From: a virus
Strand: one strand, 5' to 3'
Length of the DNA stretch: 31,899 nucleotides
Virus record (IMG/VR): IMGVR_UViG_3300042876_001171
Span: 1-31,899 of that record
Part shown: positions 3,928 to 9,426 of the stretch, piece after piece
Layout of the letters: every line of letters begins with the position of its first letter
Position numbering within the stretch: the stretch's first letter is position 1
Translations under genes and position numbers: made by a program
The notes under the pieces: generated by a model
Told to the model about the DNA's origin: nothing
The model's database searches: none
What the model saw: the letters and a program-made list of their open reading frames with translations, nothing else

Positions 3928-3967
3928 TACAGCGACGCATCATTTCCTGTGATACGGTGGCATTGGG
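3900..3967. promoter_or_regulatory. Left operator cluster: two 18-bp dyads plus one half-site, 25 bp apart
   Basis: Site 1 is TGATGC-ATAAAC-GTATCG (3900-3917). Site 2 is CAATAC-AGCGAC-GCATCA (3925-3942). A half-site TGATAC (3950-3955) begins exactly 25 bp further on. The centres at 3908.5 and 3933.5 are 25 bp apart, as in the right cluster at 4819-4861. The sites cover the leftward promoter and precede the HIRAN gene. Binding by the repressor and the Cro-like protein is inferred from position and symmetry. Confidence 0.72.
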
Positions 3968-3975
3968 GGGTGCTT

Positions 3976-4446
3976 ATGAGCGGACTGTTCCTGGTGGTGT
4001 TGATCGCTTTTGGCGTCGGAATCCTGATCTGGCTACTGGTGCCAAGGTCATCGACTCACGCGTCGGATCAGAACTCCGCGGGTGGGCGCCCGGTGATGCC
4101 GCGCATAAACGGCAACGGCAGCTACGCGATCGAGGTGGTGGGCGAGAGCCACTACCAGGCCAGCTTTGAGGCTCTGCTGGGTGCGTTGGCGTACACCGAG
4201 AGCGAGATAAGCGGCGATGCCGTGCTGCAGCTGCAGGACGACAATCCGCATGACAGCCAAGCCGTGGCCGTGTTTGTCGAAGGCCGGCAGGTAGGCCACC
4301 TGTCGCGAGACATGGCGCGCACCTTTCGTCAAGCACTGCGGCGCGATGGCTTCGGGCAGTTACGAAAGGTCGCTGTCGGTTGCCGCATCTATGGCGGCGG
4401 CACAGAAGGGCTCTTTAGCGTGAGCCTAGATCTGCCGGAGGCTTAG
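3976..4446 (+). CDS. Membrane-anchored HIRAN-domain protein
   Basis: The start is ATG 3976; an ATG at 3949 would put extra polar residues ahead of the membrane segment and lies within the operator cluster. Residues 3-23 (GLFLVVLIAFGVGILIWLLV) are a transmembrane helix, followed by a polar linker to about residue 45. The rest resembles a HIRAN domain: VVGESHYQASFEALLGAL, then LQDDNPHDSQAVAVFVEGRQ and VGHLSRDMARTF. HIRAN domains in HLTF/Rad5 bind DNA 3' ends; bacterial and phage stand-alone forms are poorly understood. The gene sits between the left operators and the repressor gene, with which it converges and overlaps by 32 bases. A role in immunity or exclusion is inference. Confidence 0.8.
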   Translation: MSGLFLVVLIAFGVGILIWLLVPRSSTHASDQNSAGGRPVMPRINGNGSYAIEVVGESHYQASFEALLGALAYTESEISGDAVLQLQDDNPHDSQAVAVFVEGRQVGHLSRDMARTFRQALRRDGFGQLRKVAVGCRIYGGGTEGLFSVSLDLPEA

Positions 4447-4786
4447 GGCCGCCCGTCTCGCGAGGGAACAGTGCCCGCGCGACATCGATGACTTGCCGCA
4501 GCTGCTCGTCGGTCAAGTGCCGCATGACGGCCTCTGCTTCGCCAAGCAAGACACGCGATGACAGTGGTACCTCGCCCATCAACTCGCTCAGCGTGACCCC
4601 GAGCGCTCTGGCTAGCGCTTCAAAGTTCTCGACCGTCATTTCCTTCGTCTTGCCGCTGAGGTAGCGCGACAGCGTGGGCTGCTCCACGCCCGCCGCTTCA
4701 GCCAGCTTTCGGTCGCTTGGGAACCCACGAGCGTCCCGCAGCTCGCGGATCCGCTCGCGTGGGTCAAAGGTGCGCCGGTAATGCAT
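4415..4786 (-). CDS. Phage repressor, XRE/HTH family, short form (CI-like)
   Basis: The 123-residue product has an N-terminal helix-turn-helix (about residues 20-70) containing RKLAEAAGVEQPTLSRYLSG with KTKEMTVENFEALARALG after it. I chose ATG 4786 because the candidate promoter at 4833-4862 would start transcription near 4826, downstream of the other possible ATG (4837). The C-terminal part (to GSR) is only about 50 residues and shows no S24/LexA-type peptidase, so RecA-driven self-cleavage is unlikely. It probably binds the 18-bp dyads at 3900-3942 and 4819-4861 and keeps the lysogenic state. Its 3' end overlaps the convergent HIRAN gene. Confidence 0.85.
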   Translation of the reverse strand: MHYRRTFDPRERIRELRDARGFPSDRKLAEAAGVEQPTLSRYLSGKTKEMTVENFEALARALGVTLSELMGEVPLSSRVLLGEAEAVMRHLTDEQLRQVIDVARALFPRETGGPKPPADLGSR

Positions 4787-4809
4787 CCGTGCATTCTCAC
4801 GGCTCGGGG

Positions 4810-4837
4810 TTGCGCAGGTGATGCGTGTCTGTATCAT
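4810..4837 (+). promoter_or_regulatory. Rightward early promoter (PR-like)
   Basis: TTGCGC (4810-4815) and TATCAT (4832-4837, 5 of 6 to consensus) are 16 bases apart. The start site would fall at about 4844-4846, on or next to the ATG of the cro-like gene. The promoter is overlapped by the dyad at 4819-4836 and followed by the one at 4844-4861. The -35 box is weak, so confidence is moderate. Confidence 0.55.
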
Positions 4838-4861
4838 CGCGACTTATGCATCACGGTATCA
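4819..4861. promoter_or_regulatory. Right operator cluster: two 18-bp dyads, 25 bp apart
   Basis: Site 1 is TGATGC-GTGTCT-GTATCA (4819-4836). Site 2 is TTATGC-ATCACG-GTATCA (4844-4861). The centres are 25 bp apart, identical to the left cluster, and the 10-base string TTATGCATCA of site 2 recurs inverted at 3900-3909. The sites cover the divergent promoters of the repressor and cro-like genes and the cro start codon, as expected for a CI/Cro switch. Confidence 0.75.
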
Positions 4862-4862
4862 A
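4833..4862 (-). promoter_or_regulatory. Candidate repressor promoter (PRM-like)
   Basis: On the minus strand TTGATA (4857-4862, 5 of 6) and GATGAT (4833-4838, 4 of 6) are 18 bases apart. It overlaps the rightward -10 box on the other strand, so the two promoters would exclude each other. Transcription would begin near 4826 and leave a leader of about 40 bases before ATG 4786. Confidence 0.42.
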
Positions 4863-5166
4863 CTTGTCCGCGCTGGCCCGCAGCCTTATCGACCGACGCC
4901 TGTTCACCACCAAGACCCTAGGTGAGGCCATCGGCTTGTCGCAGCCATCGGTGTCGCGCTTGGCCAGCGGCAAGACTAAGGAGATTGGTGCATATCCAGC
5001 GCTGAGGCTCATCGAGCTGGCGGGCGGGACTGTGACGCCTCCTGTGGCGGTCGAAGTCAGGCTCAAAGAGCCAGCCAACGCTCCTCCCATCCCCGCGCCT
5101 GCCGTGGCCGCCAGCCAAGCCGCACAGCCGTCCACCACCACGAAGGCCACCCATGCCGCAGGCTGA
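4846..5166 (+). CDS. Cro-like XRE/HTH regulator, 106 aa
   Basis: The start is ATG 4846 (MHHGINLSALARSLIDRR); a GTG at 4825 would extend into the operator. The helix-turn-helix spans about residues 20-50 (KTLGEAIGLSQPSVSRLASG). It carries SR-x2-SGKTKE, which the repressor encoded on the opposite strand also has, so both probably read the same operators. The C-terminal third is Pro/Ala-rich and likely disordered. No ribosome site precedes the ATG, and the predicted transcript starts almost at it, so the message may be leaderless. It would be the first gene of the rightward early transcript. Its last codons and stop lie in a 35-base segment repeated at 5538. Confidence 0.8.
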   Translation: MHHGINLSALARSLIDRRLFTTKTLGEAIGLSQPSVSRLASGKTKEIGAYPALRLIELAGGTVTPPVAVEVRLKEPANAPPIPAPAVAASQAAQPSTTTKATHAAG

Positions 5167-5185
5167 CCGCCGCCGCCTGCTGGCG
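5151..5185. repeat. Cassette 3' flank, copy 1 (35 bp)
   Basis: This segment runs from the last codons of the cro-like gene through its stop to 5185, and it matches 5538-5572 at 34 of 35 bases in the same orientation. Each copy lies just beyond the 3' end of one of the two minus-strand genes at 5208 and 5577. Confidence 0.85.
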
Positions 5186-5207
5186 ATCCTTGCCGCGGGC
5201 TGCGTGG

Positions 5208-5456
5208 CTAGTTCCTGGTGCCGGGCGGCCGCCGCAGGTGGTCGAAGCCGCCGGTCTTCGACATGTCTTCCAGCACGTTCAGCAGGTACAGCGCATCCAG
5301 CAGCGGGATGGTCAGCCGCCACGCGGTCGGGGCCTCGTTGTTGGACGGTGGTTTGGTGTAGCCAAGAACCTCCATCTGCACAACTGTGTGCTGAGGGTCC
5401 GGTGATCTGGCGCCGAGTCTGGCGCCCTCGACTCGCGTGATGAACATGTGTTCCAT
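5208..5456 (-). CDS. Cassette gene A: hypothetical 82-aa protein
   Basis: ATG 5456 follows a strong AGGAGGG in a leader that is 63/66 identical to that of the next minus-strand gene (5577-5837). The product starts MEHMFITRVEGARLGAR, has an amphipathic beta-like part (TVVQMEVLGYT), then a hydrophobic helix-like stretch TAWRLTIPLLDALYLLNVLE, and ends PPGTRN. It has no known motif. It points against the rightward early transcript, as extra genes (morons) expressed in lysogens often do. It could act on host physiology or on other phages; this is inference. Confidence 0.7.
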   Translation of the reverse strand: MEHMFITRVEGARLGARSPDPQHTVVQMEVLGYTKPPSNNEAPTAWRLTIPLLDALYLLNVLEDMSKTGGFDHLRRPPGTRN

Positions 5457-5519
5457 GGGTGCCCTCCTGGTGAGGCTGGTCGTCGTGGGGATGTCCAGCG
5501 TACACCGGGCAGGGCGCCC
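5454..5519. repeat. Cassette 5' leader, copy 1 (66 bp)
   Basis: It contains the start codon and ribosome site of gene A and matches 5835-5900 at 63 of 66 bases. I see no convincing sigma-70 promoter in it, but its conservation ahead of two different genes suggests it carries the expression signal. Confidence 0.88.
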
Positions 5520-5537
5520 TCCACAGCAAGGGGATGG

Positions 5538-5572
5538 CCATGCCGCAGACTGACCGCCGCCGCCTGCTGGCG
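5538..5572. repeat. Cassette 3' flank, copy 2 (35 bp)
   Basis: This is the second copy of the segment at 5151-5185 (one mismatch). It marks the junction between the two cassette units and ends 4 bases before the stop codon of gene B. Because copy 1 contains the cro-like gene's 3' end, copy 2 is probably the derived one. Confidence 0.85.
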
Positions 5573-5576
5573 CCCC

Positions 5577-5837
5577 TTAAGGCATGTCCAGCTCCAGCAG
5601 CACCCGAGGCGGTGATGCCGCTGCGGAGAAATCGAAGTGGCGTGCTGTACAGCGGAACTGGCGAATGTCCGGCCCAGGGTGCATGCGAATCGATAGCAAG
5701 TCCCCGATGCCCGGGAGAGGGCACCAGCCGGGCGTGCCGGGCTGCAGTGACATCGCCTCGAATGGGCCTGCTCCAACGCCTTCGTACTGCGTGGCGAGCG
5801 CATCTGCACGCCCGATGAACTGGGGTTCGACTTTCAT
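5577..5837 (-). CDS. Cassette gene B: hypothetical 86-aa protein
   Basis: ATG 5837 follows AGGAGGGGGCCC in the conserved cassette leader, which decides the start over longer readings. The product (MKVEPQFIGRADALATQYEG at the start, VLLELDMP at the end) shows no clear similarity to gene A although its leader is nearly identical, so the flanks were kept while the cargo differs. It has alternating hydrophobic residues and looks like a small beta-rich cytoplasmic protein. No family is recognised. It lies antisense to the rightward early transcript. Confidence 0.68.
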   Translation of the reverse strand: MKVEPQFIGRADALATQYEGVGAGPFEAMSLQPGTPGWCPLPGIGDLLSIRMHPGPDIRQFRCTARHFDFSAAASPPRVLLELDMP

Positions 5838-5900
5838 GGGCCCCCTCCTGGTGCGGCTGGTCGTCGTGGGGATGTCCAGCGTACACCGGGCAGGGCGCCC
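5835..5900. repeat. Cassette 5' leader, copy 2 (66 bp)
   Basis: This is the second copy of 5454-5519 with three mismatches, two next to the start codon and one in the ribosome-site region. Similarity stops sharply at 5900, which marks the cassette border. Confidence 0.88.
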
Positions 5901-5945
5901 GCCAAACCCTGCGAGGGGTGTCTCTTTCACTCCGCTGGTGCCGGC

Positions 5946-6059
5946 CTATCCGGCGGCTGCCTTCTCCTCCTGCGGCGGCCGGGGTGACCTGGCCCTCGGC
6001 CCACGGGCCGGGGGCGTTTTCTTCAACCGCGGCTGAGCCGCCAGCACTGCACACGCCAT
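5946..6059 (-). CDS. Possible small basic, proline-rich protein, 37 aa
   Basis: An ATG at 6059 opens a 38-codon frame with a basic/proline-rich sequence containing QPRLKKTPPARGPRARS and ending EEKAAAG. Its start codon overlaps, on the other strand, the ATG of the RHH gene at 6058, and its ribosome site (AAGG) is very close to the start. No non-coding explanation is obvious for the ordered Lys/Arg/Pro pattern, but GC-rich DNA can give this by chance. Treat it as tentative. Confidence 0.3.
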   Translation of the reverse strand: MACAVLAAQPRLKKTPPARGPRARSPRPPQEEKAAAG

Positions 6060-6273
6060 GAGCCTTGACCGCAAAGACCTGCGCATCAAGTTGGACCCCG
6101 ACGATCACGCCGGCCTGCAGCTGCTGGCCGACGCCGAAGACCAGGACATGAGCGCCTGGGCCGAGGCCCTGCTCAAGCGCGAGATCCGTCGTCGTGTGCA
6201 TGCCGCCATCTTGCTGGCCAAGCGCGCGGAGCGCTTGGGATTAGCCGGGAGTGCACTCCCGGCTGAGCGCTGA
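6058..6273 (+). CDS. Ribbon-helix-helix type DNA-binding protein, 71 aa
   Basis: The protein starts MSLDRKDLRIKLDPDDHAGL, with a beta strand (DLRIKLD) followed by two helices (DDHAGLQLLADAEDQ, then MSAWAEALLKREIRRRV), which is the layout of Arc/MetJ-like ribbon-helix-helix proteins. These bind DNA as dimers through the strand. A basic tail RRRVHAAILLAKRAERLG follows. A perfect 22-bp palindrome lies in its last codons and a related site 42 bp further on, which could be its own targets. It comes before the replication genes and may control them. No toxin partner is seen. Confidence 0.72.
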   Translation: MSLDRKDLRIKLDPDDHAGLQLLADAEDQDMSAWAEALLKREIRRRVHAAILLAKRAERLGLAGSALPAER

Positions 6274-6303
6274 CATCAGGGAGTGGCCGGGAATGGACTC
6301 CCT
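6243..6303. promoter_or_regulatory. Two related palindromes, centres 42 bp apart
   Basis: Bases 6243-6264 form a perfect 22-bp palindrome (AGCCGGGAGTG and its complement). Bases 6286-6303 are a related imperfect site, GCCGGGAATG-GACTCCCT. The centres (6253.5 and 6295.5) are 42 bp apart, four turns of B-DNA. No T-run follows, so termination is unlikely. They lie between the RHH gene and the winged-helix gene and look like operators. Confidence 0.55.
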
Positions 6304-6333
6304 AGACACGGCAAATGCCGCACAGGTGCGTTG

Positions 6334-6639
6334 ATGCGGCCGCTTGGTGACATTGCCCGCGCCATGCTGCAGCACGCCAGCACACCGGGCACGGTGCGCG
6401 AGGTGTGCGAGCGGGCGCATGTGGGCTACGGCACGGGGGCGTACACGGCCAGCCGGCTGCTGAGTGCCGGGCTGCTGGTGGCGGATGCGAAGGCGCCGGC
6501 GCCCCAGCGGGCTGCCCGCGGCCGCCCGCCGATGGTGGTGATGGTGGCGCCTGAGCACGATGACGAAGGCGTGGTGCACCTGCTGCAGCGCGCGTTCGCG
6601 CTGCGGCGCCCCACTGCTTTGGAGTGGGACGCGCTGTAG
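6334..6639 (+). CDS. Winged-helix-like DNA-binding protein, 101 aa
   Basis: The start ATG 6334 follows AGGTGC at 7 bases; longer readings run through the palindrome at 6286-6303. The N-terminal 65 residues fit a winged helix: MRPLGDIARAMLQHASTPGT, a turn, then REVCERAHVGYGTGAYTASR as a recognition-helix region and LLSAGLLVADAKAPA as the wing. The rest is Val-rich (PPMVVMVAPEHDDEGVVHLL). It stands directly before the primase-helicase gene in the same frame, so a replication-initiation or regulatory role is likely. The family is not assigned more closely. Confidence 0.65.
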   Translation: MRPLGDIARAMLQHASTPGTVREVCERAHVGYGTGAYTASRLLSAGLLVADAKAPAPQRAARGRPPMVVMVAPEHDDEGVVHLLQRAFALRRPTALEWDAL

Positions 6640-6681
6640 CAGCGCCCCCGCAAACCTCAACGCTGACCGCGCGGGCAACGC

Positions 6682-9426
6682 TTGCCAGGACCTCACTCCC
6701 CCATCGACTTTGTGGCGCTGGCCGATGCGCTGCTGCATCGGGCGCACACGCTGCTGTCTCAATGGATACCCGGCGGCCACATGGAGGGCCACGAGTACGT
6801 TGGCCCCAGCCGCCGAAGCGGCGGCGTGGGCGACAGCCTGAAGGTCAACACCACCAATGGGCGGTGGGCCTACTTTGCGGGGGACGACAGCGACAGCGGC
6901 GGCGATCTCGTGTCGCTCTACGCCTGGCTGAACAATCTGCCGCAAGGCAAGGCGGCGCTGCAGCTGATGGACGAGCTGGGCTGGCAGCGCTCGCGCACGG
7001 CTGCACCGGCGGGCGGTGACGCGGCAGCCGGCACGCCGGCCTGGCCCGCGGATGTGCCGCCCGATGACGAGGCCATGCTTGCCCCGGCAGCGCCCAGCCC
7101 CGCGCGAGCGCCTGATGCGCCGCCGCCGGCGCCGGTGGCCCGCCAGGAGCGGTGGGTCAGTGTTCTGCCAGTGCCGCCGCATGCGAAGCCGCCCCGCTCG
7201 TTTGTGTTCGCGTTCAAGAACGAGAAGCTGGGCGCGTGGCAGGAGATCGAGGCTGCCAAGGTCTGGGAGTACCGTTTCGAGCGCGAGTTGTTCGGCTACG
7301 TGTGCCGCTTCGAGCGGTTCAACAGCAGCGGCGAGCTCACCAAAGACACGGTGCCGCTGACGTGGTGTGAAGACACCCAGGACGCGCGCCGCGGTGCCAA
7401 GTGGCACTGGAAGACCTGGGCCACGCCGCGCCCGCTGTACGTGCCGGCCACGCTGCTGAGCGGCGACCCTGCCAACGTGCCGGTGGTCATCGTGGAGGGC
7501 GAGAAGTGCGCGTTGGCCGGGCACGAGCTGCTGGGCCACGAGTTCGACTTTGTGAGCTGGCCCGGTGGCAGCCGCAGCTGGGCACTGGCGCGCTGGAGCT
7601 GGCTGATGGGGCGCACGGTGTACCTGTGGCCCGACTGCGATGCGGCGCGGGTGAAGCTGAGCCGGGCCGAGCGCGAGGCCAACGTCGACCCGGCCACCAA
7701 GCCGCTGCTGCCCGAGGCCAAGCAGCCGGGCATGCAGGCCATGGTGGGCATTGGCCAGTTGCTGCTGGCCGAGCAGGGGTGCGACGTGCTGCTGTGCCCC
7801 ATCCCGAAGCCGGGCGCGGTGGCGCACGGCTGGGACATCGCGGACGCCATCGCCGATGGGTGGGACGCTGCGCGCGTGCGCGATTTCATCCGCTCGGCAC
7901 GGCCCTTTGCGCCCCCTGACGAGGCCGTGCGTGCGAAGGCGGGCGATTCCGTGGCGGCGGCGGCGCAAGCCGCGTCTACCCCTTCCAGGGCTGCCGCAGG
8001 GGAGGGGGAAGGCGACGAGGCGCTGGGTTGGCTGGTGCACCTGCTGCGCAGCGGCTCGGGTGCTGTGCGCAACGTGCGCGAGAACATCGTGCTGGCCCTG
8101 GACGGGCTGCCGGGCACCAAGGTGCGCGGCATCGAGGCTTGCGCCGGGTTGATCGGCTTCAACGAGTTCAGCAACAACATCGAGAAGCGCCGGCCCACGC
8201 CGTGGGGCACGCCCGCGGGCGACTGGATGGAAGCTGACGAACTGCTGCTGGGCGACTGGCTGGTGCGAGAGCACCGCATGCCCAGCATGCCCCGCGGCGC
8301 GCTGGAAGAGGCGGTGATGGTGGTGAGCAGGCGCCACAGCTTCCATCCCCTGCGCGAGCGCATGGAGGCCTTGCGCGGCAAGTGGGACCAGCAGCCGCGC
8401 CTAGACCGCTGGCTGCGTCTGACGATGCTGGAAGAGGACGAATGGGACGAATCCGATCCGCTGGTGCGCTATCTGGCGCTGGCTGGCACGTGGTTCGTCA
8501 TGGGCATGGCGGCGCGGGTGATGCCCGAAAAGCGCGAGGGCGCGCAAGTGGTGGTAGGCCCTGGCACCAAGTTTGACTACATGCTGGTGTTCGAGGGGCC
8601 GCAGGGCTGGGGCAAGAGCTCGGCGGCGGCGGTGCTGGGCGGCGAGTACTTCGCCGACACGGGCCTGGACCTCGAGCACAAAGACTCGCTCATGAACATC
8701 CAGGGCGTCTGGGTGTACGAGTGGAGCGAGCTTGAGAACCTGAACAAGCAGGAAGTGGGCGCGGTGAAGCGCTTCGTTTCCAGCCCGACGGATCGGTTCC
8801 GCGCCACGTTTGACCGCCGGCCGGCGAAGTACCCGCGGCAGGTGGTGTTCATCGGCACGACGAACGAATCGCACTACCTCACAGACCCGACGGGCAACCG
8901 CCGTTTCTGGCCGGTGCGCGTGACGCGGCCGCCCGACCTGACCTGGCTGCGGGCGAACCTGGAGCAGCTGCTGGCCGAGGCCGTGCACCGGGTGGACGCG
9001 GGCGAGCGTTTCTGGCCCACGCGTGATGAGCAGCGACTGCTGTTCGATCCGCAGCAGCATGCTCGCACGGTCGAGAGCGGTATGGAGTCAGCGATCCGCG
9101 CGTTCTTGTATGACGAGACGCAAAAGACCTTCCCGAATGAACAGGCAGGTACGGCGTTGAACGAGATCGCCCTGGGCGAGCTGCTTAGGAGGATCGGCTT
9201 CAGCACGGACAAGCAGACCGACGCGGTGGGCAAGCGGGCGGGCGCAGTGATGAAGGCGCTCGGCTGGGAAACCCGCAAGACCAGCTTGCCCGGTCGGCCG
9301 CGTGTGTACGTGCGGCCGAGGAATGAACCGCGTTTCGAGGCGGGCGCAAGCCCTGGATCGAACGATGACAGCGTAGCCGGCGGCCAATCGCTGGCGCATG
9401 GAGACCCCGATGGGAACCCCTTCTAG
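6682..9426 (+). CDS. Primase-helicase fusion with VapE/VirE-type ATPase, 914 aa
   Basis: This is the replication enzyme of the phage. Residues about 30-95 resemble a CHC2-type primase zinc-finger fold (GDSLKVNTTNGRWAYFAG, then GGDLVSLYAW) but lack the zinc-binding cysteines. Residues about 265-330 look like a Toprim core: VVIVEGEKCALAGHELLG with the acidic motif WPDCD. The C-terminal half matches the virulence-associated E family: Walker A EGPQGWGKSS near residue 640, acidic WVYEWSELENL, and FIGTTNESHYLTDPTGNRRFW. The start is uncertain: TTG 6682 is the first start after an in-frame stop, GTG 6712 is also possible, and neither has a good ribosome site. It would synthesise primers and unwind DNA at the phage origin. 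Confidence 0.85.
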   Translation: MPGPHSPIDFVALADALLHRAHTLLSQWIPGGHMEGHEYVGPSRRSGGVGDSLKVNTTNGRWAYFAGDDSDSGGDLVSLYAWLNNLPQGKAALQLMDELGWQRSRTAAPAGGDAAAGTPAWPADVPPDDEAMLAPAAPSPARAPDAPPPAPVARQERWVSVLPVPPHAKPPRSFVFAFKNEKLGAWQEIEAAKVWEYRFERELFGYVCRFERFNSSGELTKDTVPLTWCEDTQDARRGAKWHWKTWATPRPLYVPATLLSGDPANVPVVIVEGEKCALAGHELLGHEFDFVSWPGGSRSWALARWSWLMGRTVYLWPDCDAARVKLSRAEREANVDPATKPLLPEAKQPGMQAMVGIGQLLLAEQGCDVLLCPIPKPGAVAHGWDIADAIADGWDAARVRDFIRSARPFAPPDEAVRAKAGDSVAAAAQAASTPSRAAAGEGEGDEALGWLVHLLRSGSGAVRNVRENIVLALDGLPGTKVRGIEACAGLIGFNEFSNNIEKRRPTPWGTPAGDWMEADELLLGDWLVREHRMPSMPRGALEEAVMVVSRRHSFHPLRERMEALRGKWDQQPRLDRWLRLTMLEEDEWDESDPLVRYLALAGTWFVMGMAARVMPEKREGAQVVVGPGTKFDYMLVFEGPQGWGKSSAAAVLGGEYFADTGLDLEHKDSLMNIQGVWVYEWSELENLNKQEVGAVKRFVSSPTDRFRATFDRRPAKYPRQVVFIGTTNESHYLTDPTGNRRFWPVRVTRPPDLTWLRANLEQLLAEAVHRVDAGERFWPTRDEQRLLFDPQQHARTVESGMESAIRAFLYDETQKTFPNEQAGTALNEIALGELLRRIGFSTDKQTDAVGKRAGAVMKALGWETRKTSLPGRPRVYVRPRNEPRFEAGASPGSNDDSVAGGQSLAHGDPDGNPF

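Follow-up and report, generated by a model that had tools for sequence, protein, structure and literature searches.

In this study, we examined a virus-derived stretch of DNA of 31,899 nucleotides (IMG/VR record IMGVR_UViG_3300042876_001171, positions 1 to 31,899; hereafter the window) and two small minus-strand genes within its early region. Genes A and B lie in a slot between a cro-like gene and the early regulator and replication genes, where they run antisense to the early transcript (Table 1). Neither has a significant match in Pfam or PHROGs. The fold predicted for gene A is beta-beta-beta-alpha (model pLDDT 80), and fold searches with it returned nothing significant; a relationship to BssS, whose order of elements is alike by eye, was considered and dropped, profile comparison with a poor three-sequence alignment being unsupportive. 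The structure model of gene B was set aside at a pLDDT of 46. Beside the cI repressor, the window also encodes a HIRAN-domain protein (3949-4446, plus strand; Pfam E 5.6e-8) with a likely N-terminal membrane helix.

Table 1. Features of the slot and its surroundings in the window
Feature	Coordinates	Strand	Evidence or remark
cI-like repressor, HTH_3	4415..4837	-	Pfam E 9.9e-11
cro-like HTH gene, left of slot	4825..5166	+	PHROG transcriptional repressor, E 4.3e-5
Flank copy 1	5151..5185		repeat; overlaps cro stop
Cargo gene A	5208..5456	-	ORF, 82 aa
Leader 1	5454..5522	-	hairpin ending at gene A ATG; repeat, fold, covariance-model match 87.5 bits
Flank copy 2	5538..5572		duplicated together with unit
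Cargo gene B	5577..5837	-	ORF, 86 aa
Leader 2	5835..5903	-	same hairpin, ending at gene B ATG; repeat, fold, covariance-model match 83.5 bits
tR1-like intrinsic terminator of early strand	5992..6015	+	
CopG-like early regulator, right of slot	6058..6273	+	phrog_7146, E 3.5e-12
Small winged-helix-like early gene	6334..6639	+	conserved right of slot; weak Pfam match only
Primase/helicase with VapE-like domain	6682..9426	+	Pfam E 2.1e-60

The initial annotation described two repeats bracketing genes with unrelated products, and our comparison agrees on each count. The 35-bp flank copies are identical at 34 of 35 positions (38/41 in the extended alignment), and the 66-bp leader copies (5454-5519 and 5835-5900) at 63 of 66 (68/73 when extended). 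Both pairs are the strongest direct repeats within positions 4000-7600, and they form a tandem unit with a spacing of 387 bp between flanks and 381 bp between leaders. Between the repeats, the DNA of genes A and B agrees at 143 of 287 positions (0.498, against 0.495 for a shuffled null) and their proteins show no BLASTP similarity (E = 16). Because cargo identity equals the shuffled null and protein similarity is absent, the conserved frame indeed holds unrelated cargo.

The two repeats are not equivalent, and the leader is far more general. The flank consists of the end of cro plus adjoining bases, and its first copy is the boundary of the exchanged immunity region. A search of IMG/VR with a 28-bp flank core matched only two close relatives (L003 and L008); given this distribution and the overlap with the cro stop, we rejected the flank as a general cassette end. 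On its plus strand, the duplicated flank (window 5153 and 5540) reads MPQ(A/T)DRRRLLA, the ATG overlapping the cro stop in the first copy; this reading is possibly the relic of a cro-coupled gene.

Copies of the leader occur well beyond the window. A distant phage located via its CopG-like protein (L007) carries the same leader before another gene in the same slot, and a relaxed leader pattern yielded further copies. A second pattern specified the outer stem, the Shine-Dalgarno (SD) sequence and the ATG, its interior left free because selection for inner structure was to be avoided. It was found in 54 IMG/VR contigs and in 4 of 399 genomes from the family of a Rubrivivax MAG, with zero matches for the reversed pattern; in a class-wide sample of 185 genomes, only the starting MAG carries it. 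A strict inner pattern gave 0 matches in the species genomes. With a covariance model built from 13 leaders, we found 64 copies in 53 loci, 11 of which carry two copies in tandem, and one phage may hold a third. Nearly all leader matches in the whole records searched fall within the slot. Rfam 15 contains no match to the leader at E up to 10, and no family gathering score was reached. Searches of phage and plasmid records with the slot DNA, and of phage records with the consensus leader, returned no match, and no description of the leader was found in open-licence papers. The leader RNA is a family absent from Rfam and from the open-licence literature searched. With regard to the plug-in frame proposed initially, the leader half stands, since this element stands in front of many genes that are unrelated to one another but share slot and orientation, and the half concerning the 35-bp flank does not. 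The initial annotation had staked its reading on the recurrence of flanking sequence around other genes; as the leader precedes dozens of them, that reading is not refuted on this count.

Small genes unrelated to one another occupy one fixed place in the early region of many temperate phages, each behind a hairpin leader. The 60 distinct cargo proteins form 45 clusters (phmmer E < 1e-3); since the proteins are so short, there are at most that many true families. Coding starts at the leader ATG, and differences between the closest pairs concentrate at the third codon position (2/2/15 and 1/0/5). Pfam and NCBIfam gave single weak matches, IraP, DUF2594 and BssS among them, and PHROGs matched few families, mostly of unknown function. 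None of 53 cargo proteins matched a PADLOC model, and the suggestion that the slot holds anti-phage genes is therefore not supported. The L037 cargo (92 aa, MKNVLISYDLHKLG...), for which no family match was returned, is reminiscent of the Cas2/VapD-like small nucleases. The slot itself is well preserved: scored with 13 reference neighbour proteins, 39 of 55 contexts have a cro or cI homolog on the left and 30 of 55 an early regulator or VapE on the right (our counts), with the cro-like match in the other orientation in one context (L044). L010, judged by inspection to resemble a Mu-like phage, has its leader and cargo (7933-8267, plus strand) flanked by a Ner-like gene and the transposase and running opposite to them; this would be the same slot in another type of phage.

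Cargo-strand RNA spanning GGNGGGCGCCC to the ATG is predicted to form a single long hairpin. Its outer stem buries the SD, which is held in the 3' arm (5468-5463 in leader 1 and 5849-5844 in leader 2), and its loop is carried by an inner stem of the form GCUGG/CCAGC or covariants of it. The core has the form TANNNT-GG (TACGCT at 5502-5497 in leader 1), and core and loop bases are conserved beyond what pairing needs. While the repeat with its ribosome site had been recognised initially, the covarying hairpin that encloses this site had been missed. Compared with shuffles, the fold of the two window copies is modest (z -1.4 and -1.6). Six additional leaders gave z values of -2.6 to -5.5, all with the SD buried in a long stem, and over the cargo-strand leaders the mean MFE z was -3.8 to -3.9, with 96% of SD bases paired in the predicted fold. 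Of the cells in the 62 distinct copies, 94.9% are paired, and at least one two-sided change occurs in 16 of the 18 pairs. Two-sided cells number 56, where shuffling leaves 11.6 and sliding the partner column no more than 18, figures to be read in light of an alignment fitted to the model, which favours structure, and of a search pattern that fixed part of the outer stem. In the unconstrained set, the inner stem is replaced by GCTTGC/GCAAGC, GCTGTT/AACAGC or GCTGTG/CACAGC. In L079 and L051, the outer stem of the second copy is entirely different, yet that copy, too, finishes with SD, stem and ATG. By computation, the SD therefore lies inside a conserved stem of the mRNA strand, which is one mark of an SD-sequestering leader.

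With moderate confidence, we interpret the leader as a portable translation-control element that acts on the cargo strand by sequestering the SD of small lysogeny ('moron') genes in a fixed slot. We commit to the cargo strand because the SD is predicted to be buried in the full leader and more open in a truncated RNA; the core resembles a -10 box, but no -35 is conserved. The probability of an unpaired SD was 0.05 for the full leader versus 0.49 for an RNA starting 7 nt past the TANNNT core, and the truncated RNA was the more open at the SD in 50 of 51 leaders. In the 51 leaders parsed, the core takes the forms TACGCT, TATGCT, TAGACT, GACAAT, CAAACT and others, sharing an A in the second and a T in the sixth position. 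A sigma-70 promoter upstream of the leader was rejected, as DNA conservation ends about 4 nt upstream and no -35 is present there. Mechanistically, mRNA entering from upstream would fold the hairpin and leave the cargo untranslated, and cargo would be made only where the hairpin is absent or opened. The simplest opening would be a transcript that starts inside the hairpin, just past the -10-like core, as in the fold-back inhibition of transposases. Expression of the cargo in the lysogen, as predicted from this arrangement, is plausible. Against SD sequestration speak the stronger fold of the opposite strand (see below), the missing -35, the modest z of the window copies, and a length rule that it leaves without explanation.

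This rule concerns the length from GGGCGCCC through the cargo ATG, which is 60, 63, 66, 69 or 72 nt in all 55 distinct copies of the GGGCGCCC type (window 5454-5522, L014, L016 and L031-L083). Within this clade, segments vary by one or two bases and indels compensate one another; divergent leaders outside it mostly break the multiple-of-three rule. A leader peptide or upstream open reading frame was considered as the source of these lengths and rejected, since in every frame some loci lack a start codon; substitution scores likewise single out none. More tentatively, and with a probability well short of even, this undescribed RNA family could be the standard insulated leader of a plug-in slot, in which transcription in the lysogen starts inside the hairpin, transcripts from outside stay silent, and the multiple-of-three length is a second constraint. 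If so, the leader would make a lysogeny-only gene of any small gene that follows it, and the length would reflect a constraint such as translation through the leader.

The main rival to SD sequestration with an internal start is that the cargo-strand hairpin is a switch opened in trans by a phage or host protein, a small RNA or a ligand, making translation responsive to a signal. The conservation of core and loop in excess of pairing needs would suit such a factor, as would the lack of a visible promoter with a -35 in or above the leader. However, neither a ligand nor a protein emerged as a candidate, many variants of the core are tolerated, and the cargo families are unrelated, so that there is no shared pathway for a switch to sense. 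We consider a switch of this kind rather unlikely, if still the strongest competitor.

The complementary strand, that of the early transcript, deserves separate attention. For the leaders of L014, L016, L031-L083 and the window, it has the more stable fold of the two strands in 48 of 51 cases by energy and 44 of 51 by z-score (mean z -5.0 versus -3.9). A wobble test of strand (GU versus AC) was set aside as not clean, because many AC cells come from a single pair that variant leaders do not form. A plus-strand tR1-like terminator follows the leader in 21 of 54 related contexts, compared with 5 of 48 controls. The better fold and the terminator together argue for an alternative in which the functional RNA is a hairpin of the early transcript between cro and the terminator, serving antitermination, processing or antisense pairing to the cargo mRNA. 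Yet the element always ends in a cargo-strand SD and ATG, even in divergent copies, and each cargo gene, not each early operon, has its own copy, which leads us to regard this alternative as unlikely, and a little more so than the switch.

Relatives of the window illustrate how cargo may be gained or lost. In L003, a different cI/cro pair is followed by the flank, a 99% identical copy of gene A and a leader whose outer end is that of window leader 2. In L005, the flank is followed by a decayed stretch of gene B without a leader, and a further relative of gene B stands behind the leader in L019. From these arrangements we infer that the L003 and L005 states arose through recombination between leaders or between flanks, a process that would remove cargo, while tandem copies would come from duplication or unequal recombination. 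A dedicated DNA recombination site that moves cassettes, comparable to an integron attC or a terminal inverted repeat, could account for the sharp left boundary, the inverted repeat and the tandem cassettes with different cargo. This is very improbable in our judgement: the leader lies 5' of each gene and holds its SD and start codon, its matches are nearly confined to the slot in the records searched, and ordinary recombination in repeats suffices for L003 and L005. The folded recombination site of an integron gene cassette, for its part, lies 3' of the gene. That genes A and B are nothing more than diverged copies of one duplicated gene is hardly credible: flanks and leaders are in register at about 93-97% identity, but cargo DNA sits at the shuffled null beside flanks at least 93% identical, the proteins share no similarity, A and B occur apart (in L003 and L019), and the same leader stands before dozens of other genes.

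To place SD sequestration on the cargo strand in context, it is useful to compare the leader with known systems. The transposase leaders of IS10 and IS200 carry a hairpin in the 5' region of the mRNA that encloses the ribosome-binding site and thereby keeps transcripts entering from outside from being translated (fold-back inhibition). The phage leader is alike in its 5' hairpin over the ribosome-binding site. It differs in preceding dozens of unrelated small genes in a fixed slot, where the IS10/IS200 hairpin guards one transposase, and in that its internal start site is putative. The structured 5' end of IS200 tnpA is the subject of PMC12594629. Like phage morons and lysogenic-conversion genes, the cargo consists of small extra genes, opposite to their neighbours and variable among related phages; the usual description of a moron includes a promoter and terminator of its own, whereas the cargo shares a structured 5' leader. 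The position corresponds to that between cro and tR1-cII in lambda, downstream of cro, with a tR1-like terminator and a cII-type or CopG-like gene following, although lambda is not known to have an antisense protein-coding slot there; we do not claim a sequence relation. Fixed phage loci with exchangeable genes are also outlined for P2-like phages and P4-like satellites, as hotspots of defence genes (PMC9122126). Those hotspots occupy another locus, while the cargo described here has no defence match and each gene is marked by a shared RNA leader.

The covariance model or the outer-stem pattern provides a sequence handle that pulls small, mostly unannotated cargo genes from metagenomes and works without prior knowledge of the cargo. 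The arrangement also raises a testable question, namely how temperate phages silence cargo genes in one state and express them in the other when these genes lie antisense within the early operon. Two cargo families have distant relatives that are lone reverse genes, without this leader, in Pseudomonas and other phages. One family, with a helical N-terminus and a probable zinc-binding C-terminus, stands behind very different leader sequences in L050, L082 and the second cargo position of L079; its distant relative JBD30_030 (L086 2498-2992) is such a lone reverse gene, lacking this leader, in DMS3/JBD30-type Pseudomonas phages.
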